This document shows positions 3,573 to 21,610 of a stretch of 57,303 nt of DNA, piece by piece (positions within the stretch are counted from its first letter, which is position 1; every line of letters starts with the position of its first letter). The notes below the pieces were generated by a model. It was not told where the DNA came from and searched no databases. It saw only the letters and a list, made by a program, of their open reading frames with translations. This DNA is from an uncultured Flavobacteriaceae bacterium (GTDB taxonomy: Bacteria; Bacteroidota; Bacteroidia; Flavobacteriales; Flavobacteriaceae): positions 1-57,303 of the forward strand of contig CANMSB010000032.1 of assembly GCA_947500445.1 (NCBI GenBank), written 5' to 3'. Made by a program: the position numbers and the translations under genes.

Positions 3573-6500
3573 TTAAAAGTCGGTCACCAAGGGAATGGCA
3601 AAGGTAATGCGCGTTCCTCCGACCGTCCCATCTTCATTTTTTACTTCATCGATCTGCAAGCTTTCCTTTCCGGATATGGACTCCAAACGTTCTTTTGTAA
3701 CTACCAATGCCATGGACTGGTGGTCGGTTTTCGCCTTTTTTTGTTGGGACGAAAAAATACCCATACCGTTATCCGAAACCGTGCAATGCAAATGGGTATC
3801 GGTGGTATGGAAGGTTACTTGCAATACCCCTTCCCTAGTTCCTTTTAGTATGCCATGCCTGATGGCATTTTCCACAAAAGGCTGTATCAGCATTGGCGGA
3901 ATCAAAATTTCCTCGGCACCGGGCGTTGTTTTTACGTCTATGGAATGGGTAAACGGCTTAGGGGCCATTAACTTTTCTACAGCGATATAATGTTCCAGCG
4001 TTTTTACTTCTTGGTCCAGGGCGATCGTTTCCTTTCGGGAATTGTTTAGCGTATCCCGAAGCAACACCGCAAAACTGTTTATGGTGGTATTCATTTTTTC
4101 CGGTTTATCGGTCGCCATCGCTTTGATCCCGTTGAGCACGTTAAAAATAAAATGTGGGTTCATTTGCAGTCGCAATGCTTTTTGCTCCAAGGTGAGCAGG
4201 TAATTTTGCGTTTTCAAACGTGCCTGTGCCGCCCTGTTTTTGGATTTTAATTTTTGAACGTACCACCATACCAAACTTAACAGCACCATAAGCACCGATG
4301 CCAGTACGGTCCATTGAAACCAATTTTTCCTGTACAGCGGACTATCGATAAAAAAGCGGAACGCTATGGGGTCGCTCTCTTCCCAGCTGTGGTTTCGGGA
4401 CTGTACGGAAAAGGTATGTGGCCCATAGGCCAGACCGGCAAAATTTTGCTGTCGCGACGCGCTCCAAGGGCTCCATTCGTTATCGTCCAACTTGAAACGA
4501 TATGCAATGGCGTTCGGATGGTCCAAGTCTACGGTCCTGAAGGAAAAGCCCAATTGCGTTTGATCGGGGTTCAGCTGTAGTACCTTGTTACTGTTGTTGG
4601 TCCATTGCCTCAGATCAATGGAGTCAATGGCCTTATACGCTTCTTCTACCCCTGTAAAATAAACCCTCGGGGGTAAGGATGTTCTGGTGTTTTGACTAGG
4701 CGTGTGTTTGGTCAATCCGTAAATCGCACCGAACCAAAGGTTGCCCTTCCCGTCCTTGTCCACGGCGTTCAAACAGGTTTCTATCCCTAAAAAACCATCG
4801 TTCCTACCAAAGTGGTATACCTCCATAATTTCGTTGGAGGCGTTCAACACTATCTTATCCACACCCTTTTCGGTGCCTGCCCATAAATTTCCTTCATCAT
4901 CAAAAATAAGTTGGTAAATGTTATTGGAAGCGCTGTTTTTTGCACCCTTGAGTTGCTGAAAATTATCGGGTGTGCCGCTATTGGAATACCAAATACCTTT
5001 CCCTGAAGTTCCGAGGAACAACCTGTTGTTATGGAAGCGCACCGTTCCTATGGCCGTAAGCCCTTCCAGCGGCGTATCGAGCATGGTCAACTTACCCGCT
5101 TCAATATAGCCCAAATGTCCGTTCTGAGAGGAGAACCATAACCGACCACTTTCATCTTTTACCATATCCTTGAGCAGCAGATCGGTCATTCCCTCCCGTT
5201 TTCCGAAGGTTTTGCGGATTACCAGACTGTCATTGCCCGAAAAGTAATTGAACTTTACAATTCCGTTGGCATAGGTAGCCGCCCATACGTATTCATCGTC
5301 AACGACCAGTTTTCGGATCCAGTCGGAAGGAAAACCCTTGCGTTCGTCAATACTATGTTCGGTGGTCCGGGTTACCGGTATGGTGTCTATTTGAATTTGA
5401 AAGGAATTTCGGGATCGGAGCACCAAACTATCCGTGGTTTTTGTTTCGCGGAAAAGGATGCCCCTATCGTCGGATCCGGCCCAGATGTTCCCATTTGCGT
5501 CACTGGCAATGGTCTTGATCTTTACCTTGTAAAAAGGGTTTTTATTGGGTAACGGATGTATGCCCGAGGAGTCTATTTTTGTAAGTCCGGCCTCCGAGCT
5601 GGACAACCAGATCTCATCCTTTGCGCGGTGTACCGCATAAATACGGTTTCCCTTTAAACCGTTGCGTTTGTCATAATGCACAAAATTGTTTTGGAAGTAC
5701 TTGTACAGTCCCCCTCCGGAGGTAGCGATCCAAAGATTGTTTCGGGAATCGCAAAACACTTTTCGAACGTGGGGTGCCGCCAAACCGTTACCGGTGTGCA
5801 ATTGTTTTACCACATCAAAATTTTTGGTTTCGATAACCGAAACTCCATTATGGGTAGCCATCCATAACTCGTTTTTGTAAACGGACATGCTGTTGACACC
5901 GAGCGGCTCGGGCATCAGAAACGTATTCTTGGGGTTTTCTTGATCCATAACGAACACCCCATCATCAAAAGTAGCCGCAATGATCTTGTTGTTATGCTGT
6001 AGTACCGCGGTAAAATTATTGGACTCCAATTTGCTGATTTCTCCGGCGGTAGCGTTCAACGCATTGCATTTCCAGAGTCCGTTATCGGTGGCCAACCAAA
6101 AATGGTCCCCATCAAAATAAATGGTGTTGATGCTACTGGCATCTATTTCAGGATGTATCGGTATTTTTTTGGGTCCCGATTTTTGGGAAAAGGCATAAAT
6201 GCCTTTTCGTGTTGCGAGATATAGGTTGTTTTTATACCGATAGAACTGCTGTATTAAAGGAATTTCATAATTGGTAAAACCACGCTTTGTTTTTATGGAA
6301 AGTCCTCTTTTGGTTCCAACGAACACCGAATCGTTGGCGCTGTGCAGGGCATGGATATAGTTGGAAAGCAGTCCATCATTCTCGTTCCATACCGAAAAGG
6401 TTTCGCCATCGAAATTTGCGAGGCCGCCCCCTTGGGTTCCCGACCATAAAAACCCTTTTTCGTCCTGTGCCACATCGTACACCTGCGACTGGGGCAAGCC

Positions 6501-6602
6501 CTGGGCTATCGTATACGGGCGCAACTGGCTATTTTGTGCGACTAACTGTTCCGCGTATACGAAACATAAACACAAAAAAAGGTATGTTAGGGTCTGGTTC
6601 AA
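3573..6602 (-). CDS. Beta-propeller sensor histidine kinase (LytS-type kinase core)
   Basis: 1009 aa. A signal peptide (to about residue 22) is followed by two-component-regulator propeller repeats (GLPQSQVYDVAQDEKGFLW, DSRNNLWIATSGGG, DDEGNLWAGTEKG) to about residue 640, a Y_Y_Y domain, a single membrane span near 760-780, then the kinase. The phosphorylated His lies in LQMNPHFIFNVLNG (H817), typical of the LytS/His_kinase type, and the ATPase part carries ENAIRHGI and DNGMGI. The periplasmic propeller probably binds an extracellular ligand; the signal passes to the LytTR regulator at 2750-3499. The ligand is unknown. Confidence 0.92.
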   Translation of the reverse strand: MNQTLTYLFLCLCFVYAEQLVAQNSQLRPYTIAQGLPQSQVYDVAQDEKGFLWSGTQGGGLANFDGETFSVWNENDGLLSNYIHALHSANDSVFVGTKRGLSIKTKRGFTNYEIPLIQQFYRYKNNLYLATRKGIYAFSQKSGPKKIPIHPEIDASSINTIYFDGDHFWLATDNGLWKCNALNATAGEISKLESNNFTAVLQHNNKIIAATFDDGVFVMDQENPKNTFLMPEPLGVNSMSVYKNELWMATHNGVSVIETKNFDVVKQLHTGNGLAAPHVRKVFCDSRNNLWIATSGGGLYKYFQNNFVHYDKRNGLKGNRIYAVHRAKDEIWLSSSEAGLTKIDSSGIHPLPNKNPFYKVKIKTIASDANGNIWAGSDDRGILFRETKTTDSLVLRSRNSFQIQIDTIPVTRTTEHSIDERKGFPSDWIRKLVVDDEYVWAATYANGIVKFNYFSGNDSLVIRKTFGKREGMTDLLLKDMVKDESGRLWFSSQNGHLGYIEAGKLTMLDTPLEGLTAIGTVRFHNNRLFLGTSGKGIWYSNSGTPDNFQQLKGAKNSASNNIYQLIFDDEGNLWAGTEKGVDKIVLNASNEIMEVYHFGRNDGFLGIETCLNAVDKDGKGNLWFGAIYGLTKHTPSQNTRTSLPPRVYFTGVEEAYKAIDSIDLRQWTNNSNKVLQLNPDQTQLGFSFRTVDLDHPNAIAYRFKLDDNEWSPWSASRQQNFAGLAYGPHTFSVQSRNHSWEESDPIAFRFFIDSPLYRKNWFQWTVLASVLMVLLSLVWWYVQKLKSKNRAAQARLKTQNYLLTLEQKALRLQMNPHFIFNVLNGIKAMATDKPEKMNTTINSFAVLLRDTLNNSRKETIALDQEVKTLEHYIAVEKLMAPKPFTHSIDVKTTPGAEEILIPPMLIQPFVENAIRHGILKGTREGVLQVTFHTTDTHLHCTVSDNGMGIFSSQQKKAKTDHQSMALVVTKERLESISGKESLQIDEVKNEDGTVGGTRITFAIPLVTDF

Positions 6603-6650
6603 AAGACTAGAATTTCCATTAGTTGGACCGTAGATTAAACGAAAATAAGG

Positions 6651-13177: not shown

Positions 13178-13241
13178 TTTAACCCAGTTTACATACAAAA
13201 TTTTCGCCCTAAGGGTCGAAAATGCGATAAAACCGGGTTTT
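13178..13241. repeat. Short inverted-repeat element upstream of the rtcB operon
   Basis: TTTAACCCAGTTT at the left and AAAACCGGGTTTTG at the right are inverted copies, with GAAAATGC-ATAAA inside, resembling the left end of the 2406-2583 element. Its right edge overlaps the TTG start proposed for the next gene, so that start may be wrong, or the element may supply regulation. Confidence 0.45.
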
Positions 13242-14025
13242 GAAACAAAATCAATGCCATTGCGCAAACGATTTTGGCATCGAACGATGCAGCAACATGA
13301 TTTTAAAAAAATGCAACCCTAAAAACGGATGTGTCGTGAAACCCCCACATATCAAATGTAAAAGAGCGAAAGAAATTCGTCGTATTCGAAAGAGAATAGG
13401 TCAACTATGGGCAGAAAAAAATGCACTGGGGTTTATCGAGTTAAAGAAGCCTATTCGACATGGTTGGTTTAAAGAAATTATCATCACCCATGGCGTGGAG
13501 CACTATAAAAATGGTGCCGCTATAAGAGAGGTGTACGATAAGGTGGAAAAACTATTTTGGGGACGCACCAAAGAAGAAGCGGAAAAAAAGTGGTGTCATC
13601 AAACTTCAAAATATTTGATCAACAAGGAAATTCCGACCATTAGCAGAAAACAGTACAATAGATTGAGCGATAAAGCAAAATTACTGTGCGTGCCTTTCCA
13701 CTATATGGTGGAAAGTAAAAAATTGAGACTCCGGTACTATGTAAAAATCCCGAGAGGGGCATATCGGATCCGATTTACCAGAGCCTTTATCACCCATAGC
13801 AAACGCATTGACCCAAAACTGGAAAGTGAAAGTGCGCTATTGGGACAGCAAATGAAAAAGCATGGCTATTACGAAGCGAATGAAAAATTAGACAAATGGA
13901 ACGATTGGTGGAAGGTAGAAGAAGTGAAAAAACGGAACAGAAAAATTAAAAAAGATGTCCAAAACCTTAGAAAATATTCCATTCACCAATTACTAAAAGA
14001 CGAAATATCATGGGAAAAAAATTAA
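13240..14025 (+). CDS. Unrecognised basic protein preceding rtcB
   Basis: 261 aa from TTG at 13240; the first ATG is at 13297. I do not recognise the family. The N-terminus is Cys-rich (CHC, then four further Cys up to residue 40), as in a zinc-binding knuckle, and is followed by a Lys/Arg-rich stretch KCKRAKEIRRIRKRIGQLW. A central part has WGRTKEEAEKKWCHQ, and the tail is a basic coiled-coil-like helix. The charge suggests RNA binding. The last 16 bases overlap the rtcB start, so translation is coupled, pointing to a direct role with the ligase, for example substrate recognition or end processing. Confidence 0.75.
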   Translation: MKQNQCHCANDFGIERCSNMILKKCNPKNGCVVKPPHIKCKRAKEIRRIRKRIGQLWAEKNALGFIELKKPIRHGWFKEIIITHGVEHYKNGAAIREVYDKVEKLFWGRTKEEAEKKWCHQTSKYLINKEIPTISRKQYNRLSDKAKLLCVPFHYMVESKKLRLRYYVKIPRGAYRIRFTRAFITHSKRIDPKLESESALLGQQMKKHGYYEANEKLDKWNDWWKVEEVKKRNRKIKKDVQNLRKYSIHQLLKDEISWEKN

Positions 14026-15401
14026 GCGGGAAGGACCTGATCAAATTAGGTTTTCCAAAGAACAATAGCATAAACATCACTTTGGGCCAAATCAACAGAT
14101 ACCATAAGCGAAAAAAGAAAGCGCAGGTATTGACGGAAGCCAAAAAAGTGTTGTTGCACCCCGAAGACTATAGCGGAGATGCCGTGTGGGGAAAGATAGC
14201 CGAAAGTTTATTGGACCCGGTCATCGTTAAAAAACAGGAACTCAAAACGGTACGCGCTCCTTTTTGGATATACGGTGAAAATGAAATTGAGCAACAAGCC
14301 AAGTATCAATTGTACGATGCCCTAAAATTACCGATTTCCGTAGCTGGTGCTCTAATGCCGGATGCCCATAGCGGGTATGGCCTGCCGATCGGAGGTGTTT
14401 TGGCGACCCATAATGCGGTAATCCCCTATGGTGTGGGAGTCGATATTGGCTGTAGTATGTGTTTGACGGTTTATCCTATTGCGGTTTCCTACCTTAAAGG
14501 AAAGAAGCATCAATTGGCGAACATGCTTTCCGAACATACCAAATTCGGAATGCGGGAAACACATCGGATAAAGCATGACCATGAAATCTTTGAGCGAGAA
14601 GAATTTAAAAATATACCGCTCGTAAAAAGACTAAAGGACAAGGCGTACAAGCAGTTGGGAACCTCAGGTGGAGGAAACCACTTTGTTGAATTCGGTACGG
14701 TAACCCTTACGGACGACGATAACGAATGGGGACTTAAATCGGGGGAATATCTCGGTCTACTTTCCCATAGCGGGTCGCGTGGCCTTGGTGCGAACATTGC
14801 AAAACAGTACACCTATTTGGCCACTAAGCAATGTCCCTTGCCCAAACACGTACAGCATTTGGCATGGTTGGATTTAAATACCCATGACGGACAGGAATAT
14901 TGGTTGGCGATGCGTTTGGCGGGCGATTATGCTACCGCATGCCACGATGATATCCATACTAGGCTGGCCAAGCTTTTGGGAGCAAAACCAATAGTCAAGA
15001 TACGGAACCATCACAATTTTGCCTGGAAACAAGAGGTAAACGGTGAGGAGTGTATCGTACACAGAAAAGGAGCGACCCCGGCTGCAAAAGGCGAACTGGG
15101 AATCATTCCCGGATCTATGACGGCACCTGGTTATATCGTAAAAGGCTTGGGAAATGCAGCAAGCTTACAATCCGCCTCCCACGGTGCGGGGCGTCTTTTT
15201 TCAAGACGAAAATGTAAGGAGACCTTTACCCAAAACGAGATTAAAAAACAATTGAACGCCAATGAAGTAACCCTCATTGGCGGGGGAATAGACGAAGCGC
15301 CGATGGCCTATAAAAACATAGAAAAAGTCATGGCGAATCAACAAGAATTGGTCGAAGTACTTGGAACCTTTACCCCTAAAATAGTACGAATGGATAAATG
15401 A
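14010..15401 (+). CDS. rtcB: RtcB RNA ligase (GTP-dependent 3'-phosphate/5'-OH joining)
   Basis: 463 aa, the usual RtcB length. Motifs are complete: MPDAHSGYGLPIGGV (116-130), metal-binding VDIGC (D145, C148), GGGNHF (N223, H224), SHSGSRG (H253), the HHN triplet (334-336), HRKGATPA (351-358), PGSM (367-370) and SHGAGR with the guanylylated His391. RtcB joins 2',3'-cyclic phosphate or 3'-phosphate RNA to 5'-OH ends using GTP and Mn2+. Its start overlaps the gene upstream, and prfH follows 137 bp later across a 7-bp tandem repeat. Pairing with PrfH indicates repair of cleaved RNA rather than tRNA intron splicing, but the unusual tRNA array nearby raises another possible substrate. Confidence 0.97.
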   Translation: MGKKLSGKDLIKLGFPKNNSINITLGQINRYHKRKKKAQVLTEAKKVLLHPEDYSGDAVWGKIAESLLDPVIVKKQELKTVRAPFWIYGENEIEQQAKYQLYDALKLPISVAGALMPDAHSGYGLPIGGVLATHNAVIPYGVGVDIGCSMCLTVYPIAVSYLKGKKHQLANMLSEHTKFGMRETHRIKHDHEIFEREEFKNIPLVKRLKDKAYKQLGTSGGGNHFVEFGTVTLTDDDNEWGLKSGEYLGLLSHSGSRGLGANIAKQYTYLATKQCPLPKHVQHLAWLDLNTHDGQEYWLAMRLAGDYATACHDDIHTRLAKLLGAKPIVKIRNHHNFAWKQEVNGEECIVHRKGATPAAKGELGIIPGSMTAPGYIVKGLGNAASLQSASHGAGRLFSRRKCKETFTQNEIKKQLNANEVTLIGGGIDEAPMAYKNIEKVMANQQELVEVLGTFTPKIVRMDK

Positions 15402-15538: not shown

Positions 15539-16231
15539 ATGGAAAAGATATTACAAATTACAGCAGGAAGAGGCCCGGCAGAATGCTGCTGGGTGGTTTC
15601 CCAAGTGCTTAAGCTATTCTTGCAAGAGGTGAAGGCAGAAGGATTGGAATATACCATACTTCACCAGGAAAAAGGCACTCAAAACGGAACGGTACAATCG
15701 GTCACCATTGGGGTGAAAGGGAAGAACCTAAATACTTTTTTAGCAACGTGGTTAGGAACCATTCAATGGATCGGCACCTCAAATTTTCGAAAGTACCATA
15801 AACGAAAAAACTGGTTCATCGGCGTTTTTGAACTGAAACTGTTGAAACCTACAGAAATTAAGGATAACGATATCTCTTTTCAAACTATGAGAAGCACGGG
15901 ACCTGGTGGGCAGCATGTAAATAAGGTCAACTCTGCGGTCAGGGCCACTCATCATCCGACAGGAATTCAGGTCGTTGCCATGGATAACAGGTCGCAACAC
16001 CAAAATAAAAAACTGGCAAAAACCCGGTTACAGGAAAAGGTGAACGAGGCCAACCTTCGGCAGTTGAAAAACAGTATATCGGACCAATGGGAAAATCATT
16101 TGAAGCTACAACGGGGAAAACCGGTTCGGGTATTCAAGGGCACCGATTTCAAACATCAGAAAAAAAACAAAAGCTTCAAACCAAAACGGCAGAAGCTAAA
16201 GAATGATTTAAAACAACAAAAATGGGACTAA
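15539..16231 (+). CDS. prfH: Peptide chain release factor H (rescue factor)
   Basis: 230 aa. The GGQ peptidyl-tRNA hydrolysis motif is present (GPGGQHVNKV, G123-G124-Q125), with the family's short N-terminal part and Lys-rich C-terminal tail that enters the ribosome. PrfH belongs to the RF2-like class and in known systems is encoded with a particular RtcB type; it releases ribosomes stalled by damage to the decoding-centre rRNA so the cut can be sealed. Here it lies directly after rtcB. The start ATG at 15539 follows the tandem repeat by 54 bases. Confidence 0.95.
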   Translation: MEKILQITAGRGPAECCWVVSQVLKLFLQEVKAEGLEYTILHQEKGTQNGTVQSVTIGVKGKNLNTFLATWLGTIQWIGTSNFRKYHKRKNWFIGVFELKLLKPTEIKDNDISFQTMRSTGPGGQHVNKVNSAVRATHHPTGIQVVAMDNRSQHQNKKLAKTRLQEKVNEANLRQLKNSISDQWENHLKLQRGKPVRVFKGTDFKHQKKNKSFKPKRQKLKNDLKQQKWD

Positions 16232-16770
16232 CGATAGCCGACACCTATTATTTAAAGGCAAAGGCAGCATCGGGTTATGACTGGGACGAAGTGTGCGAAT
16301 CATTAAATTATGCCCTGTCTTACGATGAAAACCATTGTGCGGCACTTTGCCTTTTGGGGGAAGTGTACGCAGGTAACTTGAATCGGTTTGCCGAAGCTTT
16401 TGCCTGTTTTGATAGAGTAATCGCAATAAACAGCAATTATACAGCTGTTTATCCCGTTTATACAAAATACCTTATTTGGGCCGATGAAATCGATAGAGCA
16501 GCAAAACTTATCGCCTTTGCTCTCAGTATAAAGGGAATAGCAAAAGGAAGTCTATTTTGGCTTTCCGCGTATGCGGCGGAAACCAAACAAGATTATAAGG
16601 CTGCTATAAAACAACTGAAGAAGGCCAAAAAACATGCTTTTAATGATGATTACTTTTCCTTTATCGAAGAAGAGGAGAACAGGCTCAAGAAGAAGTTGAA
16701 ATGGGATAAATCCAAAGTAAAAAAGAGGCGGTCCTCTTCAAAAAAGAGAAAGAAAAAGCATAAAAATTAA
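16222..16770 (+). CDS. TPR-like protein with very basic tail, in the rtcB-prfH operon
   Basis: 182 aa. Helical repeats resembling TPRs (ALCLLGEVYAGNLNRFAEAFACFDRVIAI; then AAKLIAFALSIKG and DYKAAIKQLKKAKKHA) cover residues 5-150. The last 30 residues are almost pure Lys/Arg/Ser (KKRRSSSKKRKKKHKN), suited to binding RNA or ribosomes. The start overlaps the prfH stop by 10 bases, giving translational coupling. Likely an adaptor that brings repair factors to ribosome or tRNA; that is inference. Confidence 0.8.
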   Translation: MGLTIADTYYLKAKAASGYDWDEVCESLNYALSYDENHCAALCLLGEVYAGNLNRFAEAFACFDRVIAINSNYTAVYPVYTKYLIWADEIDRAAKLIAFALSIKGIAKGSLFWLSAYAAETKQDYKAAIKQLKKAKKHAFNDDYFSFIEEEENRLKKKLKWDKSKVKKRRSSSKKRKKKHKN

Positions 16771-17464: not shown

Positions 17465-17475
17465 GTTCATTGAAA
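17465..17475 (+). promoter_or_regulatory. GTTCATTGAAA leader motif of tRNA array 1 (boxA-like?)
   Basis: GTTCATTGAAA followed at once by a CCCTC-AGA-GAGGG hairpin and then tRNA-Lys. The same 11-mer plus hairpin occurs at 18790 and 19749, and the 11-mer alone at 12200. It resembles boxA-type antitermination leaders of stable RNA operons; that role is inference. Confidence 0.4.
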
Positions 17476-17508: not shown

Positions 17509-17583
17509 TGATTCGTAGCTCAGCCAGGTTAGAGCAAGGCCCTTTTAAGGTCGAGGTCATGGGTTCGATTCCCATCGGGTCAA
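17509..17583 (+). tRNA. tRNA-Lys(UUU)-like
   Basis: Cloverleaf: acceptor TGATTCG/CGGGTCA, D stem GCTC/GAGC, anticodon loop CTTTTAA, T arm ATGGG-TTCGATT-CCCAT. The outer pair of the anticodon stem is an A-G mismatch and the acceptor has two U-G pairs, so this is not a standard housekeeping tRNA-Lys. CCA is not encoded. Confidence 0.8.
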
Positions 17584-17589
17584 CAAGAT

Positions 17590-17677
17590 GGAAGGGCAAA
17601 CCAATTTGGTGGTGGTCGCTGTTTTGAAAACAGTTAGGAGTTAACGACTCGTGTGGGTTCGACCCCCACTCCTTCCG
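17590..17677 (+). tRNA. tRNA-Ser(UGA)-like
   Basis: Acceptor GGAAGGG/TCCTTCC, anticodon loop TTTGAAA, long variable arm with GAGT/ACTC stem, T arm GTGGG/CCCAC, discriminator G. The long variable arm confirms the serine class. Confidence 0.85.
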
Positions 17678-17682
17678 CAACA

Positions 17683-17755
17683 CTGAGAGGATAACGATGG
17701 TTTGGTTACCTGCCTTGGATGCAGGAGGTTGCAGGTTCGAATCCTGTCTCTCAGA
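17683..17755 (+). tRNA. tRNA-Pro(UGG)-like
   Basis: Acceptor CTGAGAG/CTCTCAG, D stem TAAC/GTTA, anticodon arm CCTGC-CTTGGAT-GCAGG, T arm GCAGG/CCTGT, discriminator A. A relative with two inserted hairpins lies at 18193-18286. Confidence 0.82.
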
Positions 17756-17763
17756 CAAAAAAT

Positions 17764-17851
17764 GGAGAGTAGGTAAATACTGGTTTGTTACACTTGTCTG
17801 CTAAACAAGACCGCACCAGAGGCGGTGGAGGTTCGATTCCTCCACTCTCCG
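17764..17851 (+). tRNA. tRNA-Ser(GCU)-like
   Basis: Acceptor GGAGAGT/ACTCTCC, anticodon arm CTTGT-CTGCTAA-ACAAG, long variable arm ACCGC/GCGGT, T arm GGAGG/CCTCC, discriminator G, followed by CCA. Confidence 0.87.
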
Positions 17852-17857
17852 CCAAAT

Positions 17858-17931
17858 AGACAAGGTGGCTGAATGGTTAAGGTGGCAGACTGCAAATCTG
17901 TTTTTACAGGTTCGAATCCTGTCCTTGTCTC
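17858..17931 (+). tRNA. tRNA-Cys(GCA)-like
   Basis: Acceptor AGACAAG/CTTGTCT, anticodon loop CTGCAAA with stem GCAGA/TCTGT, T arm ACAGG/CCTGT. The discriminator is C, whereas cysteine tRNAs normally carry U there, so charging may be altered. Confidence 0.8.
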
Positions 17932-17937
17932 AAAAAA

Positions 17938-18019
17938 GGGAATGCGTCAACGATGGAGGGTTGAGCCAGTCTGTAAAACTGGTGCTTTGGCTTAATAGGT
18001 TCGAATCCTATCATTCCCA
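17938..18019 (+). tRNA. tRNA-Tyr(GUA)-like
   Basis: Acceptor GGGAATG/CATTCCC, anticodon arm CCAGT-CTGTAAA-ACTGG, long variable arm as expected for bacterial tyrosine tRNA, T arm ATAGG/CCTAT, discriminator A. Confidence 0.85.
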
Positions 18020-18025
18020 CAAGAA

Positions 18026-18097
18026 GCATCTATGATGAAAGGGATAGCACTAAAGATTTCCACTCTTTCAGTCCGGGTTCGAATCCTAGTAGGTGCA
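18026..18097 (+). tRNA. tRNA-Gly(UCC)-like
   Basis: Acceptor GCATCTA/TAGGTGC (one U-G), anticodon arm AAAGA-TTTCCAC-TCTTT, T arm CCGGG/CCTAG with one mismatch. Functional status is less certain than its neighbours. Confidence 0.7.
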
Positions 18098-18103
18098 CGA
18101 AAT

Positions 18104-18187
18104 AGGGTTCATTGGGGTAATGGCGATCCTTCCCGACTGTCTCTCAGGAGATACGGGTTCCCCCGAAGTTTCGGGGCCATCGGTACT
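18104..18187 (+). tRNA. tRNA-Asp(GUC)-like with hairpin inserted in the T loop
   Basis: Anticodon arm CCCGA-CTGTCTC-TCAGG (one C-A mismatch) gives anticodon GUC. The T arm starts ACGGG-TTC, but the loop continues into CCCCGAAGTTTCGGGG (18161-18176), a stem-loop. The 3' acceptor strand could not be matched well to the 5' strand, so the ends are approximate and the gene may be broken. Confidence 0.5.
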
Positions 18188-18192
18188 GCAAA

Positions 18193-18286
18193 CTGGGAAG
18201 ATAATCCCGAAGCTTCGGGAGATGTTTACCCGCTTTGGACGCGGGAGGTCGCAAGTTCCCCCGAAGCATCGGGGTTGCTTCTCAGA
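18193..18286 (+). tRNA. tRNA-Pro(UGG)-like with hairpins in both D and T loops
   Basis: Acceptor CTGGGAA (18193-18199) pairs with TTCTCAG (18279-18285), discriminator A. Anticodon arm CCCGC-TTTGGAC-GCGGG. TCCCGAAGCTTCGGGA (18205-18220) interrupts the D loop and CCCCGAAGCATCGGGG (18259-18274) interrupts the T loop. Apart from the inserts the layout matches the Pro tRNA at 17683. All canonical stems still pair, so selection on the fold is plausible. Confidence 0.7.
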
Positions 18287-18292
18287 AGAAAT

Positions 18293-18364
18293 GCTCCATT
18301 AGCATAGTGGCTAGTGCATCCGACTTTCTATCGGAAGACAAGGGTTCGATTCCCTTATGGAGTA
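18293..18364 (+). tRNA. tRNA-Glu(UUC)-like
   Basis: Acceptor GCTCCAT/ATGGAGT, anticodon arm TCCGA-CTTTCTA-TCGGA, T arm AAGGG-TTCGATT-CCCTT, discriminator A. No insert. Confidence 0.85.
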
Positions 18365-18369
18365 CAAAT

Positions 18370-18441
18370 AGATCCGTGATGTAACGGTTAGCATACAAGG
18401 TTTTGATCCTTGGCGTAAAGGTTCAACTCCTTTCGGATCTT
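18370..18441 (+). tRNA. tRNA-Gln(UUG)-like
   Basis: Acceptor AGATCCG/CGGATCT, anticodon arm CAAGG-TTTTGAT-CCTTG, T arm AAAGG-TTCAACT-CCTTT, discriminator T. Confidence 0.83.
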
Positions 18442-18446
18442 CAAAT

Positions 18447-18531
18447 GGTGTCTCTAGCTTATCTGGTAAAGCGTCCCACTGTGAATGGGAAGAACAGGGT
18501 TCTCCCGAAGCGTCGGGACCGGAGTACACCC
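18447..18531 (+). tRNA. tRNA-His(GUG)-like with hairpin inserted in the T loop
   Basis: D stem GCTT/AAGC and anticodon arm TCCCA-CTGTGAA-TGGGA are intact. The T loop is interrupted by TCCCGAAGCGTCGGGA (18503-18518). Five acceptor pairs form between GGTGT and ACACC; the two inner positions are weak. Probably the third hairpin-bearing tRNA of the array. Confidence 0.6.
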
Positions 18532-18574
18532 AAAGAAAAGACCGCAATAAAGATGGTCAAATGAACAACGCATT

Positions 18575-18637: not shown

Positions 18638-18737
18638 GACGCAGAAGTAATGCGATGAAAAAAAATATCTACGCATAATAATTGCGTAGTTATGATTCAA
18701 TTTTGGCCAGTATTTAAAAACAAGCCTTTTAAAAAGA

Positions 18738-18800
18738 GGTTTGTGAGCGTGCCTCGCAGCAACAAGGAGTGTTGTGAGGCTCAACTAAAGTTCATTGAAA
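18738..18800 (+). promoter_or_regulatory. 63-nt leader repeat, copy 1
   Basis: Starts GGTTTGTG, contains a stem-loop built on GCCTCGCA...TGTGAGGC, and ends AAAGTTCATTGAAA. The same 63-nt layout recurs at 19697-19759. Each copy heads a structured RNA that leads into tRNA halves, so it is likely a promoter-proximal leader. Confidence 0.55.
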
Positions 18801-19237
18801 TAAAAAGGAGTCCATATCATGGGCTTCTACGAAAAAAATCGTCATTTCTTGTAAATGACGGGGCGGCTTATCGTCCTTAGATAAACTTGGTAACAAGGAT
18901 AAATCTATTTGCGGGCCTCGCAAATGGAGACTATCCCCTTCGGGGAGAGTACAGGTAAGCAAGCAACCAACATATTTTTACGAGGCCTCAGGGGCGACCG
19001 CTGAGAGGCCTTAGAAAAATATAGCCGACCAAAAGTAGGCTTGCGGTGGAGACACCAACAGGAAAAGTTGTAGTTCTCGGTAACGCTTAAACCATCCGAT
19101 TTAACGGTGCCGATTACAGCATGAAAGTGACCCGACAGGTAAACTGTTCGGTGGCTTGAACTGCCGTAAGCTGGGAAGCTTACAGGAAGAAGGTTGGTAT
19201 TTTGTAGGCCAAAATCTACGGAGCCATTCTCGAAGCC
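18801..19237 (+). ncRNA. Large structured RNA, segment A (upstream of a tRNA 3' half)
   Basis: No coding potential, but many compact stem-loops: AGTCCAT/ATGGGCT (18811-18827), CGTCATTT/AAATGACG, CTTG-GTAA-CAAG, ATTTGCG/CGCAAAT, a UUCG-type hairpin near 18937, a roughly 45-nt hairpin (ATATTTTT/AAAAATAT enclosing GGCCTCAG/CTGAGAGGCC), GGTG-GAGA-CACC, CCGACAG/CTGTTCGG and GTAAGCT-GGGA-AGCTTAC. Several GNRA-type loops suggest tertiary contacts. It runs directly into the T-arm piece at 19261. The RNA class is not recognised. It could be one half of a permuted intron or an ornate ncRNA of the kind found beside tRNA arrays. Confidence 0.6.
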
Positions 19238-19319
19238 CTTCTTCCAGGTCAAACTTTTGTTTGGGTTCGATTCCCAAGAGAAAACCATTTTCGTCTCTTA
19301 GCTCAATGGGAGCATCAGA
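19238..19319 (+). tRNA. Candidate permuted tRNA: 3' half followed by 5' half
   Basis: T arm TTGGG-TTCGATT-CCCAA (19261-19277) and acceptor 3' strand AGAGAAA with ACCA come first. After a short loop come the acceptor 5' strand CGTCTCT (19292-19298), TA, and D arm GCTC-AATGG-GAGC (19301-19313). AGAGA and TCTCT pair across the junction (5-6 bp). The anticodon region is not joined here: TCAGA follows the D arm and leads into RNA segment B. No matching anticodon 3' strand was found, so this is the weakest of the three junctions. Confidence 0.45.
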
Positions 19320-19668
19320 ATACGCAAAAGACTTCGGGCATTGTAGCAGCTAGTAGTTGCCTAAACCCATTGTAACATATGGGGTGGTAGCGGTCGCAAG
19401 CCGATACCATGCGGTGAACATTCCAATAGGTCGCCCCGCAAGGGGACACCTATGAACGGTGGGGGAGCCAACCCCCGTAATTGCAAAGCGCGGCCAAAAA
19501 CCGCTATGCAGGCCGGGTCTAAGTTGCCGAACGGCTACAATGTATTTGGCATCGGACAGGTACGCAACTTCCAAAGCAACGGAACGCGCGTGGAAAAGTA
19601 GGGAAAGCGTTTGCCATACTCCTACGAAAGCTTGTCCACAAGCGTGGGTATTCCCAGCACGTTTTTTT
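19320..19668 (+). ncRNA. Large structured RNA, segment B, with terminator
   Basis: Follows the tRNA 5' half. Strong hairpins: GCAGCT/AGTTGC, GGTAGCGG/CCGATACC, GGTCGCCCC-GCAA-GGGGACACC (GNRA loop), ACGG-GGGGG/CCCCCGT, GCA-AGCG-GG/CC-GCT-TGC. It ends in a terminator with stem CGTGGG/CCCAGCACG and a seven-T run (19642-19668). No reading frame of note. Together with segment A it flanks the permuted tRNA halves. Confidence 0.6.
19642..19668 (+). terminator. Intrinsic terminator of structured RNA B
   Basis: Hairpin CGTGGG-TATT-CCCAGCACG followed by TTTTTTT; it separates the first structured unit from the leader repeat at 19697. Confidence 0.75.
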
Positions 19669-19696
19669 AAAATATAGTGTAAACCGCAGCTTATCG

Positions 19697-19759
19697 TGGT
19701 TTGTGGTGGTGCCTCGCAGCAACAAGGCGTGTTGCGAGATTTTATTAAAGTTCATTGAA
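19697..19759 (+). promoter_or_regulatory. 63-nt leader repeat, copy 2
   Basis: Same layout and length as 18738-18800 (GGTTTGTG, the CCTCGCAGCAACAAGG stem, GTTCATTGAAA at 19749-19759). It is followed by a CCCT...AGGG hairpin, as in the other two units. Confidence 0.55.
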
Positions 19760-19950
19760 AATAAGACTCCCTGGCGAGGCCTACGCTTCGCATAGGGAAA
19801 TCGTAAAAGATTCCCGCCTTCGCGGGAATAAAGTATCAAGCGGGTCTTGTTGGGTGTTTCTGTATGGCACCATTGTGTGAATAGTTGCCGAAGGGTATTA
19901 GGCTTTCATATACAACTTGACTTGAAGGTTTGGCTGTTTTCCAAAAAATG
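19760..19950 (+). ncRNA. Structured leader RNA ahead of permuted tRNA pieces
   Basis: Contains the hairpin CCCTGGCGA/TTCGCATAGGG (19769-19796), a palindrome TTCCCGC-CTTC-GCGGGAA near 19812, and less structured sequence to about 19950. No reading frame. Shorter than segments A and B but in the same position relative to a tRNA 3' half. Confidence 0.4.
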
Positions 19951-20034
19951 GTCTCAGATCTGTCGGTCACGGGTTCGAATCCCGTCGGTTCTATTTGGAA
20001 CCGTAGTTCAGTTAGGTTAGAACAACAGAAGGAT
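19951..20034 (+). tRNA. Candidate circularly permuted tRNA 1 (3' half then 5' half)
   Basis: The 3' half comes first: TCTGT (19959-19963), CGGTC, T arm ACGGG-TTCGAAT-CCCGT, acceptor CGGTTCT, discriminator A (19993). After TTT comes the 5' half: acceptor GGAACCG (19997-20003), TA, D arm GTTC/GAAC, A, then ACAGA (20025-20029). GGAACCG pairs fully with CGGTTCT (one G-U) and ACAGA pairs fully with TCTGT, i.e. both stems form only if the halves are joined in permuted order. The anticodon cannot be read because the loop is interrupted. Confidence 0.55.
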
Positions 20035-20107
20035 GCGCAGGTTCGACTCCTGCTCCCGCCAGCAGCGGGATAGCTCAGTTGGTAGAGCACCACGCTCATA
20101 ACGTGGG
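20035..20107 (+). tRNA. Candidate permuted tRNA 2, CAU anticodon
   Basis: T arm GCAGG-TTCGACT-CCTGC (20037-20053) and acceptor TCCCGCC (20054-20060), A, then GC, then acceptor GCGGGA (20065-20070), TA, D arm GCTC/GAGC, anticodon arm CCACG-CTCATAA-CGTGG (20090-20106). The acceptor strands pair over six bases across the junction. Break point in the variable region. Met or Ile(CAU) type. Directly followed by a second anticodon-like arm (ATGGA-CTGAAAA-TCCAT, Phe GAA loop). Confidence 0.55.
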
Positions 20108-20503
20108 ATATGGACTGAAAATCCATTTTCTAAAGCCGACCATCTTTTAAAACTGGTCTCCAAGTCCTGTTAGACTTAAAATGACAAAAAACCGTGGTTA
20201 TGGATCGGTCGGCTTTTCTTCGGAAAAGCAAACAGTCCTAATACTACCTTGAAATGTTGACTATTTGATGTGGAAGGTCATTTCTTTTTGAATATCCCTC
20301 CCTTGGAAAAAACCAATGAACACCGTTGGCAACGCCGATGGAAGCATACTAAAAAACAAATCATCCGACACTTCAAAAACCAATATTTCCGTAGTCGATG
20401 GATGAACCACAGCTGCGGTTTTTTAAACAAACGAAATAATTAAAGTATATGATGATAGTTTAACCAGTTCGTCCGTCACCGGCGAGGCGGACACAAATTT
20501 AAA
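20108..20503 (+). other. tRNA fragment, structured RNA and slipin leader
   Basis: Begins with a Phe-type anticodon arm (20110-20126). AAAGCCGACC (20132-20141) pairs with GGTCGGCTTT (20207-20216) enclosing 65 bases; a perfect UUCG hairpin CTTTTC/GAAAAG follows (20213-20228). A hairpin GTCCG/CGGAC at 20471-20492 lies just before the slipin start. The rest shows nothing I can name. Confidence 0.5.
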
Positions 20504-21610
20504 ATGATGATGAAACGAGTACGAATCAATGCAGGAAAAGTAGGTTTGGTCTTCAAAAACGGAGATTACCAAAACGTTATTACCAAGGGCACACACTGGG
20601 TAGGCCTACGGAACGTGGTTATGGTGTACGACCTTGCCAAAGCCTTTGTGGCCCCGATAGCATTGGAGATTTTGCTACAGGACCAAGGTTTGGAGGCAAT
20701 GTTACACGTTATCGAGGTAAAAGATGCGGAGTTGGCATTGGTATCTGAAAACGGGACTTTGAAAAAAGTGCTTACAGCGGGTAAATACGCTTTCTGGAAA
20801 GGATTGATCAATTATGAGTTCGTGATGGCCGATTTGAGCAAAATCTACATCACCGAACCCATCGGCAAAATGCTGCTAGGACATCCTTTGCTACGCCCTT
20901 ACATTCGCGTATTGGAGGTATTGGCATACGAAAAAGCGGTGTTGCTGGTCGAGGATACCTTCGTGAAAGTTCTGGACAGTGGGGTATACCACTTCTGGAA
21001 AAACGATACCTCGGTAAAGATCGCACGTGCCGATATGCGACAATTGCAACTCGAAATCGCGGGTCAAGAACTGTTGACCAAAGACAAGGCCGCTATTCGA
21101 ATCAACTGCTATACCCAATACAGAGTAGTTGACATTGAAAAAGCCTTATTGGAAAACAAAGAATACGAGAAGCAATTGTATGTTGCCATTCAGTTGGTAT
21201 TGCGTGCCTATATGGGCAGTTATACCTTGGATGAGCTGTTGGAACGAAAAGAACGTATCGCTGAGGTGGTACTTTCAGAAATCAAAACCACAGCGGCCAA
21301 ATTGGGTGTTGAAGTATTGAATTGTGGTATCCGAGATGTCATCTTAACAGGTGAGATGAAGTCTATCATGAACCAAGTGCTTGTGGCACAAAAACAGGCA
21401 CAGGCCAATACCATTACCCGACGTGAAGAGACCGCTTCTACCAGAAGTTTGCTGAACACTGCAAAGTTGATGGAAGAAAACGAAATGCTCTTCAAGTTGA
21501 AGGAGATGGAATATGTGGAGAAAATAGCCGAGAAAATCGGCGAGATCACGGTCTCTGGCAACGGGGGTATGGTAAAACAGCTAAAAGAGATTTTTGCTGT
21601 AAACAAATAG
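20504..21610 (+). CDS. SPFH/band-7 slipin-family protein
   Basis: 368 aa. The N-terminal 120 residues hold repeated beta segments (VGLVFKNGDYQNVITKGTHWVG; LALVSENGTLKKVLTAGKYAFWKG; AVLLVEDTFVKVLDSGVYHFWKN). The SPFH core spans about 130-300 (KDKAAIRINCYTQYRVVDIEKAL, TLDELLERKERI, GVEVLNCGIRDVILTGEMK), followed by a helical tail. No membrane anchor is obvious, so it may form soluble rings or cages. Slipin-type genes are found near RtcB systems in other bacteria; with the tRNA array in between, a scaffold for RNA repair is a reasonable guess. Its 3' end is duplicated at 30712. Confidence 0.9.
   Translation: MMMKRVRINAGKVGLVFKNGDYQNVITKGTHWVGLRNVVMVYDLAKAFVAPIALEILLQDQGLEAMLHVIEVKDAELALVSENGTLKKVLTAGKYAFWKGLINYEFVMADLSKIYITEPIGKMLLGHPLLRPYIRVLEVLAYEKAVLLVEDTFVKVLDSGVYHFWKNDTSVKIARADMRQLQLEIAGQELLTKDKAAIRINCYTQYRVVDIEKALLENKEYEKQLYVAIQLVLRAYMGSYTLDELLERKERIAEVVLSEIKTTAAKLGVEVLNCGIRDVILTGEMKSIMNQVLVAQKQAQANTITRREETASTRSLLNTAKLMEENEMLFKLKEMEYVEKIAEKIGEITVSGNGGMVKQLKEIFAVNK

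Follow-up and report, generated by a model that had tools for sequence, protein, structure and literature searches.

The tRNA-like module of YrlA, a Y RNA, carries the two halves of a tRNA in swapped order. In algae and archaea, circularly permuted tRNA genes likewise have the 3' half ahead of the 5' half; in their type II form the junction lies in the anticodon loop, and an archaeal case with an intervening sequence of 1 nucleotide (nt) is described (PMC3978253). In tmRNA, tRNA-like acceptor, D and T parts are built into a larger stable RNA. GOLLD RNA (RF02032) is described from cryo-electron microscopy as having a linker that sits within an RNA cage, where tRNAs are sometimes present (PMC12286853). 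In Anabaena, which belongs to another phylum, the described parallel is a single translational-stress repressor that governs a spare tRNA operon (the trn operon of the TrcR regulon), rtcB and a slipin gene (PMC10272220). Here we analysed 57,303 nt from an uncultured Flavobacteriaceae bacterium (GenBank assembly GCA_947500445.1, contig CANMSB010000032.1, forward strand), hereafter the window. A preliminary description of this DNA had reported three junctions at which tRNA 3' halves precede 5' halves, and all three are present where it placed them. Two of them, junctions 2 and 3, belong as modules to one conserved structured RNA, labelled RNA-C here (approximately 19834-20225); a module built in the same way, junction 1, lies in the linker of a GOLLD RNA. 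In every module the elbow and acceptor of a tRNA (T arm, acceptor and D arm) are reassembled from swapped halves; because the halves are swapped, the acceptor is a capped hairpin. The features concerned are the following.

19185-19660, forward strand: GOLLD RNA 3' domain (cmscan, 121.3 bits, E 1.2e-32, whole model length, below the gathering score of 150)
19260-19313, forward strand: junction 1, permuted tRNA-like module in the variable GOLLD linker (sequence, linker comparison)
19834-19928, forward strand: RNA-C domain I, the conserved 5' domain (alignment A1, model R1)
19926-19955, forward strand: hairpin with a possible pseudoknot (GG..CC; GGCT/AGCC and TACC/GGTA in relatives, by eye)
19959-20029, forward strand: junction 2, RNA-C module 1, with the permutation point in the anticodon loop (sequence, covariation)
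20037-20106, forward strand: junction 3, RNA-C module 2, with the permutation point in the variable region (sequence, covariation)
20110-20126, forward strand: anticodon-like hairpin of 5 base pairs (bp) and 7 nt, loop CTGAAAA (sequence)
20138-20158, forward strand: third hairpin with CTTTTAA in the loop (sequence; similar CTTNTAA loops in relatives, by eye)

Junction 2 consists of a T arm (19969-19985), an acceptor 3' strand (19986-19992), 4 nt, an acceptor 5' strand (19997-20003) and a D arm (20006-20023). Its acceptor is paired at 7/7 positions, one G-U included, and the match of TCTGT to ACAGA that had been pointed out earlier is found between 19959-19963 and 20025-20029, where it forms a closing helix. 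Junction 3 has its T arm at 20037-20053, the acceptor 3' strand at 20054-20060, the acceptor 5' strand at 20064-20070 (6/7 paired) and the D arm at 20073-20088, and it ends in a full anticodon-like arm at 20090-20106 (CAU; loop CTCATAA). At junction 1 a T arm (approximately 19261-19277) is followed by AGAGA (19277-19281) opposite TCTCT (19294-19298) and by a D arm (19300-19313); the acceptor has 4 or 5 bp, depending on the assignment of A19277 to the T stem, and 5/7 in the register used for the linker test below. The acceptor strands are complementary across all three junctions, as had been claimed. In an unconstrained minimum free energy fold of 19834-20225, junction 2 and junction 3 each had their T, acceptor and D helices, and the arm at 20090-20106 was formed as well; the TCTGT/ACAGA helix was absent. 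The energy of this fold had a z score of -2.57, and 0/100 shuffles were as low. ARAGORN called no tRNA at the junctions, and the Rfam tRNA model scored 32.7 bits at 20064-20132.

To compare species we used a contig scan with a domain I pattern that is blind to the modules, which yielded at least 116 loci. Together with the window and the fetched loci these gave 126 distinct RNA-C sequences, none shorter than 230 nt. Acceptor pairing played no part in the detection of T and D arms. Module 1, in the order T arm, acceptor, D arm, was detected in 125 of the 126 sequences (the missing one is genome G036), and 262 T arm-D arm modules were recovered in all; 10 T arms without a D arm by our rule (24 under a narrower rule) were omitted from the pair counts and not scored as misses. 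When partners were exchanged between species, a control that does not correct for relatedness, module 1 acceptors (n = 125) fell from a mean of 6.30/7 pairs (66/125 perfect) to 3.67, with a maximum of 4.02 in 1000 shuffles, and module 2 acceptors (n = 120) from 5.86/7 to 3.28, with a maximum of 3.76 in 1000. Some module 2 copies are degenerate or mis-parsed, since six have 0-2 acceptor pairs. When the acceptor 5' strand of module 1 was instead matched to the acceptor 3' strand that comes next, as in a tRNA of normal order, pairing was at chance level (3.08/7 vs. 3.21 shuffled).

The acceptors comprise 87 distinct sequence pairs in module 1 and 96 in module 2, with all four Watson-Crick types at several positions. 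Aligning 77 module 1 sequences that have distinct acceptors and an acceptor loop of at most 5 nt gave 93.3% paired cells (38-50% in slid controls), and 394 cells were double changes vs. 117.5 in shuffles, giving a covariation score of 0.652 vs. 0.219. Double changes occurred at 19/21 pairs vs. 16.0 shuffled, a value attained by 6/500 shuffles. Ordinary adjacent tRNAs in the fetched loci (401 pairs) showed a junction-wise acceptor pairing of 3.19/7, with 11/401 perfect, and for this reason tandem arrangement alone does not produce the acceptor signal. We concluded that the permuted order of the halves is real and selected, given covariation in many species. A close relative, locus L119, carries the same permuted modules, where the preliminary description had suggested looking for two whole tRNAs at each site. 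Derivation of the window modules from one particular tRNA of the same genome was considered and rejected: best local scores were low and mostly differed between the halves, with the exception of tRNA-Asp, which scored high for both halves of module 1.

The two RNA-C modules differ on their anticodon side. The closing 5-bp helix of module 1, equivalent to an anticodon stem, was paired 5/5 in 102/125 copies (mean 4.67 vs. 4.11 shuffled, maximum 4.24), and it occurs in compensated types such as TCTAT/ATAGA, TCTGT/ACAGA and GCTAT/ATAGC, among others. Module 1 lacks its own anticodon loop: the helix opens into the RNA body, and the flanks show no conserved loop by eye. A 5-bp stem and 7-nt loop come after module 2 in 87/120 copies (best of three offsets); the same rule gave 8/125 for module 1. 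Among these 87 loops, U33 is present in 84 and A or G at position 37 in 86, and 16 anticodons are represented. An additional 5-bp/7-nt hairpin was found within 60 nt in 80/125 sequences, vs. 400/2500 mononucleotide shuffles. Module 1 is rooted in the RNA-C body via its anticodon-stem-like helix and module 2 ends in an anticodon-like arm, and we read the closing helix of the one and the anticodon-like features of the other as tRNA mimicry.

The GOLLD RNA that carries junction 1 probably has a 5' domain starting near 18800, as judged by eye. It agrees with the GOLLD family in the linker site of junction 1, the full-length model match and the setting next to a tRNA array. It differs in scoring 121 bits against a gathering score of 150, in having a permuted tRNA-like module in place of an ordinary tRNA in the linker, and in lying at an RtcB/slipin locus. 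Relatives' GOLLD RNAs matched RF02032 with 119-136 bits in 4/8 scanned loci, and the GOLLD core motif was found near RNA-C in 12 of the 126 RNA-C loci. We compared 11 of their linkers, leaving out the twelfth (L189), whose T arm lies outside the fetched sequence. All 11 are distinct and show the order T arm, acceptor, D arm; their acceptors paired at a mean of 5.18/7 vs. 3.23 shuffled, with a maximum of 5.09 in 5000 shuffles. Some of the GOLLD linkers carry an extra anticodon-like arm by eye.

Model R1, built from the nine sequences of the domain I alignment (A1), matched 25/249 genomes of the family, 26/296 of the order and 14/395 of the phylum (13 of them within the order); the three samples overlap. 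Among the 80 RNA-C loci listed, one belongs to a Saprospiraceae metagenome-assembled genome and the others to Flavobacteriia, with Flavobacterium, Tenacibaculum, Aquimarina and Chryseobacterium among them. This taxonomic range is a lower bound, as other taxa may have lost domain I or carry a version too diverged to match. In Rfam 15, RNA-C had no match of its own above chance, besides weak YrlA, tRNA and tmRNA hits to its tRNA-like parts, and domain I had no match above chance level. The tmRNA hits are fragmentary or very weak (16-25 bits), which sets RNA-C apart from tmRNA, a tag frame not having been searched for. A pattern search of viral contigs and blastn against phages and plasmids gave no hit that would point to a viral or plasmid source, and no paper describing an RNA like RNA-C was found in searches of open-access papers. 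RNA-C is apparently a structured RNA of Flavobacteria not yet listed, situated beside RNA-repair genes and spare tRNA genes.

Two further elements were observed near RNA-C in relatives. One is an RNA, labelled RNA-B here, at approximately 2447-2650 of locus L065, with similar sequences in L066, L067, L154 and L158. It consists of an acceptor 5' strand and D arm, a conserved insert of approximately 150 nt, and a T arm with the acceptor 3' strand (CCTCTT/AAGAGG), i.e., a normal tRNA order with a large insert; its core motif occurs in 30 of the 126 RNA-C loci and not in the window. The other is a stretch at 4630-4653 of the Kordia locus L111, approximately 220 nt upstream of RNA-C, which resembles the helix 69-71 region of 23S rRNA and occupies the place of GOLLD or RNA-B at other loci. 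As a separate candidate, rRNA mimicry was rejected, since eight conserved rRNA motifs were not consistently present in the fetched loci.

In the window, a hypothetical gene, RtcB, PrfH and a TPR protein are followed by an RNA region of approximately 3 kb, containing eight ARAGORN tRNAs, the GOLLD RNA and then RNA-C, and by a slipin gene. The RNA ligase gene that had been noted nearby is confirmed as rtcB. The genes and control elements are as follows.

13240-14025, forward strand: hypothetical gene preceding rtcB (open reading frame; homologues in 5/16 fetched PrfH loci)
14010-15401, forward strand: RtcB RNA ligase (Pfam RtcB, E 1.1e-82)
15539-16231, forward strand: PrfH, peptide chain release factor H (NCBIfam TIGR03072, 243 bits, exceeding the cut-off)
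16222-16770, forward strand: TPR-repeat protein, often the next gene (weak TPR matches; homologues in 13/16 fetched PrfH loci)
17465-17474, forward strand: boxA-like leader GTTCATTGAA ahead of the tRNA array (sequence)
17509-18442, forward strand: array of 8 divergent tRNA genes, with more tRNA-like stretches beyond (ARAGORN, Rfam tRNA)
18669-18689, forward strand: palindrome CTACGCA-N7-TGCGTAG followed by TTTTG, promoter/operator-like, 5' of GOLLD and RNA-C (sequence, genome scan)
18790-18800, forward strand: boxA-like leader ahead of GOLLD (sequence)
19750-19759, forward strand: boxA-like leader ahead of RNA-C (sequence)
20504-21610, forward strand: slipin/Band 7 gene, 3' of RNA-C (Pfam Band_7, E 4.7e-25)

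Pfam and NCBIfam searches gave no match for the product of 13240-14025. PrfH was found in 18 of the 249 family genomes, and 12 of these 18 also have RNA-C. In the 16 PrfH loci fetched for comparison, not counting the window, PrfH is preceded by a window-type RtcB in 14 and followed by the TPR gene in 13; at least one ARAGORN tRNA occurs in 11 (range 0 to 17) and slipin in 7. Two more of the 16 genomes (G156 and G196) have RNA-C at another place. At least one tRNA lies within 3.5 kb upstream of RNA-C in 50 of the 80 listed loci, many of which end early on one side (the raw tally was 52; two loci whose sole hit lay inside RNA-C were subtracted). The slipin of L119 is 95% identical to that of the window. 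We also noticed a gene for a PF04308 ribonuclease H-like protein (E 3.6e-33) at 6148-6642 on the reverse strand of L119, between its tRNA array and its RNA genes, and a stretch similar to it by eye in L158, approximately 1080-1550 nt upstream of RNA-C.

The tRNAs of the array (Lys, Pro, Ser, Cys, Tyr, Gly, Glu and Gln) are divergent second copies, each anticodon being present elsewhere in the genome. With 150 of 250 candidates scored, 34 canonical tRNAs were identified outside the array, and they cover CAU and the isotypes of the array; neither Ala-UGC nor Ile-GAU was recovered. Palindromes of the CCCGAAGC..TCGGG type lie inside T loops of tRNA-like sequences at 18448-18535 and 18120-18265, and a Sediminicola luteus contig (L105/L005) has a different palindrome within the T loop of module 1. 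The leaders at 17465, 18790 and 19750 are all of the GTTCATTGAA type, which we take to be boxA. Their positions suggest that the tRNA array, GOLLD and RNA-C may be three units under rRNA-like antitermination. BoxA-like motifs were found at RNA-C in 40/123 loci vs. 1/1230 mononucleotide shuffles.

The palindrome ahead of GOLLD and RNA-C, together with a TTTG box that follows it by eye in the examples inspected, is presumably a promoter of the kind used in Bacteroidota. The exact form TACGCA-N7-TGCGTA has a single site in the 5.2-Mb window genome (18670-18688). With up to 1 mismatch, TACGCA-N6-8-TGCGYA was found at most 1200 nt upstream of RNA-C in 77/105 loci vs. 7/525 mononucleotide shuffles. 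One one-mismatch site (G000:C69:4388) directly precedes the second rtcB of the window genome. For this gene (L242, G000:C69, 1389-2905) the palindrome and TTTG box lie 92 nt upstream of the start used. With up to 2 mismatches within 400 nt, the palindrome stands ahead of 12 of the 13 second-type RtcB starts in the fetched loci, the window genome's second rtcB included, and ahead of 4/24 window-type rtcB genes, vs. 13/370 in shuffles; the rtcB adjoining prfH shows no site of its own within approximately 400 nt upstream. Because the palindrome is found upstream of both, RNA-C probably shares a regulon with some rtcB genes. The Anabaena system resembles this arrangement in that a single stress regulator controls rtcB, a slipin gene and an operon of spare tRNAs, and differs in that GOLLD and tRNA-like do not occur as words in the main text of that paper (PMC10272220).

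We concluded that the modules probably imitate tRNA rather than becoming tRNA. The explanation that we favour, quite possible if not quite probable, is that RNA-C serves an RtcB-linked stress regulon as a scaffold or decoy that mimics tRNA, by a mechanism that we infer as follows. Under translational or RNA-damage stress, RNA-C would be transcribed with GOLLD and the spare tRNAs from a regulated promoter of the kind shared with rtcB. Enzymes that bind or cut tRNA would dock on RNA-C modules to which no amino acid can be attached. The anticodon-like loops, varied as they are, could act as targets that spare real tRNAs, or could alert the RtcB repair system to cleavage. The GOLLD copy of the module would be located inside the RNA cage. 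A precedent comes from Salmonella, where the account of Hughes et al. proposes that the tRNA-like domain of YrlA inhibits an anticodon nuclease by competition (PMC7790460).

Several observations weigh against the decoy and regulon. The same account reports that Salmonella YrlA is not itself cut, with no YrlA RNA fragments detected (PMC7790460). Two loop types dominate module 2 (UUU in 40 and CAU in 15 of the 87), which is less varied than a broad decoy might suggest, and the GOLLD linker module of the window has no anticodon-like arm by eye. One-mismatch palindrome sites show no overall enrichment, since the window genome has 7 sites with up to 1 mismatch vs. 5 for the reversed-pattern control, and 20/24 window-type rtcB genes, including the window's own, lack the palindrome in approximately 400 nt upstream. 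The linkage to PrfH is loose: 13 of the 25 RNA-C genomes have no PrfH at E 1e-30, and domain I was found in 8/16 fetched PrfH loci, so RNA-C is not in every PrfH locus; the eighth of these (G036: L074/L041) has neither modules nor slipin. The uncorrected relatedness in the shuffle controls belongs here as well.

RNA-C might instead act mainly as the slipin mRNA leader, an element that resembles tRNA or senses stress and controls slipin translation or transcription in cis. A slipin gene lies 3' of RNA-C in 73/80 listed loci, its match starting 556-1193 nt past the start of the domain I motif, and the remaining 7 have less than 1,000 nt of downstream sequence. Of the eight domain-I PrfH loci, seven have the modules, and these are exactly the seven with slipin, i.e., slipin and module-bearing RNA-C co-occur in 7/7 among the 16 loci. 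However, hundreds of bases separate the modules from slipin, RNA-C in many loci comes with a separate boxA-like leader and promoter element and adjoins tRNAs or GOLLD, and an independent RNA working with slipin accounts for the same linkage. We consider the leader function improbable.

Somewhat less likely still is that RNA-C is a Y RNA whose modules form part of a Ro60-type particle guiding RNA decay. The YrlA model (RF02553) matches both modules with 37.7 and 37.3 bits (E 6.5e-6 and 8.6e-6), and model positions 23-89 and 30-81 align, so that T arm, capped acceptor and D arm stand in the same swapped order. Some bacteria have Y RNAs in their rtcBA operons (PMC7790460), which places YrlA near rtcB as well. 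The module scores are below the YrlA gathering score of 69, with 0/249 genomes over the cut-off, and weak YrlA hits are common (141/249 genomes and 8/14 control genomes), many of them probably being junctions of tandem tRNAs; because of this we did not take the YrlA score as proof. TROVE/Ro60 was found in 0/17 PrfH-locus genomes (the window included; 11 with RNA-C), with 1/14 control genomes positive, and the modules are for this reason not typical Y RNAs. RNA-C also differs from YrlA in its chained modules (two or more), its anticodon-like arms and its other body, domain I of which has no Rfam match above chance, as stated above.

The preliminary description had taken the junctions for candidate circularly permuted tRNA genes. 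Their transcripts would be cut in the anticodon or variable loop and joined by RtcB, and RNase P and RNase Z would free the acceptor to give working tRNAs. The topology of module 1 is that of the type II permuted tRNAs, with the junction in the anticodon loop (PMC3978253). RtcB is encoded nearby, the second rtcB has the promoter element in common, and CCA or NCCA directly follows the acceptor strand in 18/262 modules (17 of these being modules 2 or 3). On the other hand, a bulge-helix-bulge-like 4-bp flank helix of module 1 was not above chance (57/125 vs. 63.8 shuffled). Acceptor strands are 0 nt apart in 11/125 and 1-2 nt apart in 40/125 module 1 copies, sometimes leaving no space for tRNA ends; this short spacing is the weaker argument, because the acceptor loop has 18-22 nt in 22/125 copies and the archaeal precedent has 1 nt. 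Module 1 lacks a conserved anticodon loop, chromosomal tRNAs already serve the array isotypes and CAU, and the modules, here in a bacterium, are embedded in longer conserved RNAs. We regard the earlier interpretation as very unlikely. Decay of tandem tRNA copies through deletions, named earlier as the alternative, would suit a site close to a tRNA array and to further degenerate tRNA-like stretches, as well as the T and D arm sequences that modules and tRNAs have in common. It can be dismissed, as permuted pairing is retained across 87 (module 1) and 96 (module 2) distinct acceptor pairs, adjacent tRNAs pair at 3.19/7, and only 1/401 adjacent pairs share an anticodon.

Returning to RNA-C as a tRNA mimic, we offer a wider and rather doubtful proposal: RNA-C may found a class of multi-module tRNA-mimic RNAs in Flavobacteriales, in which unchargeable permuted modules and anticodon-like loops of variable sequence would bait anticodon nucleases or other tRNA-targeting factors, a co-regulated RtcB would sense or reseal the cut bait, and the GOLLD linker would hold the same bait inside a cage. 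If this is true, GOLLD linkers gain a function. The finding adds a structured RNA family with strong covariation that was not found in Rfam 15, and swapped-order tRNA modules, known in Y RNAs, also occur in chains and within GOLLD linkers. Two enigmas, the function of GOLLD and the spare tRNA arrays beside RtcB, become linked to one promoter element and hence to a probable regulon, which is testable in culturable Flavobacteria.

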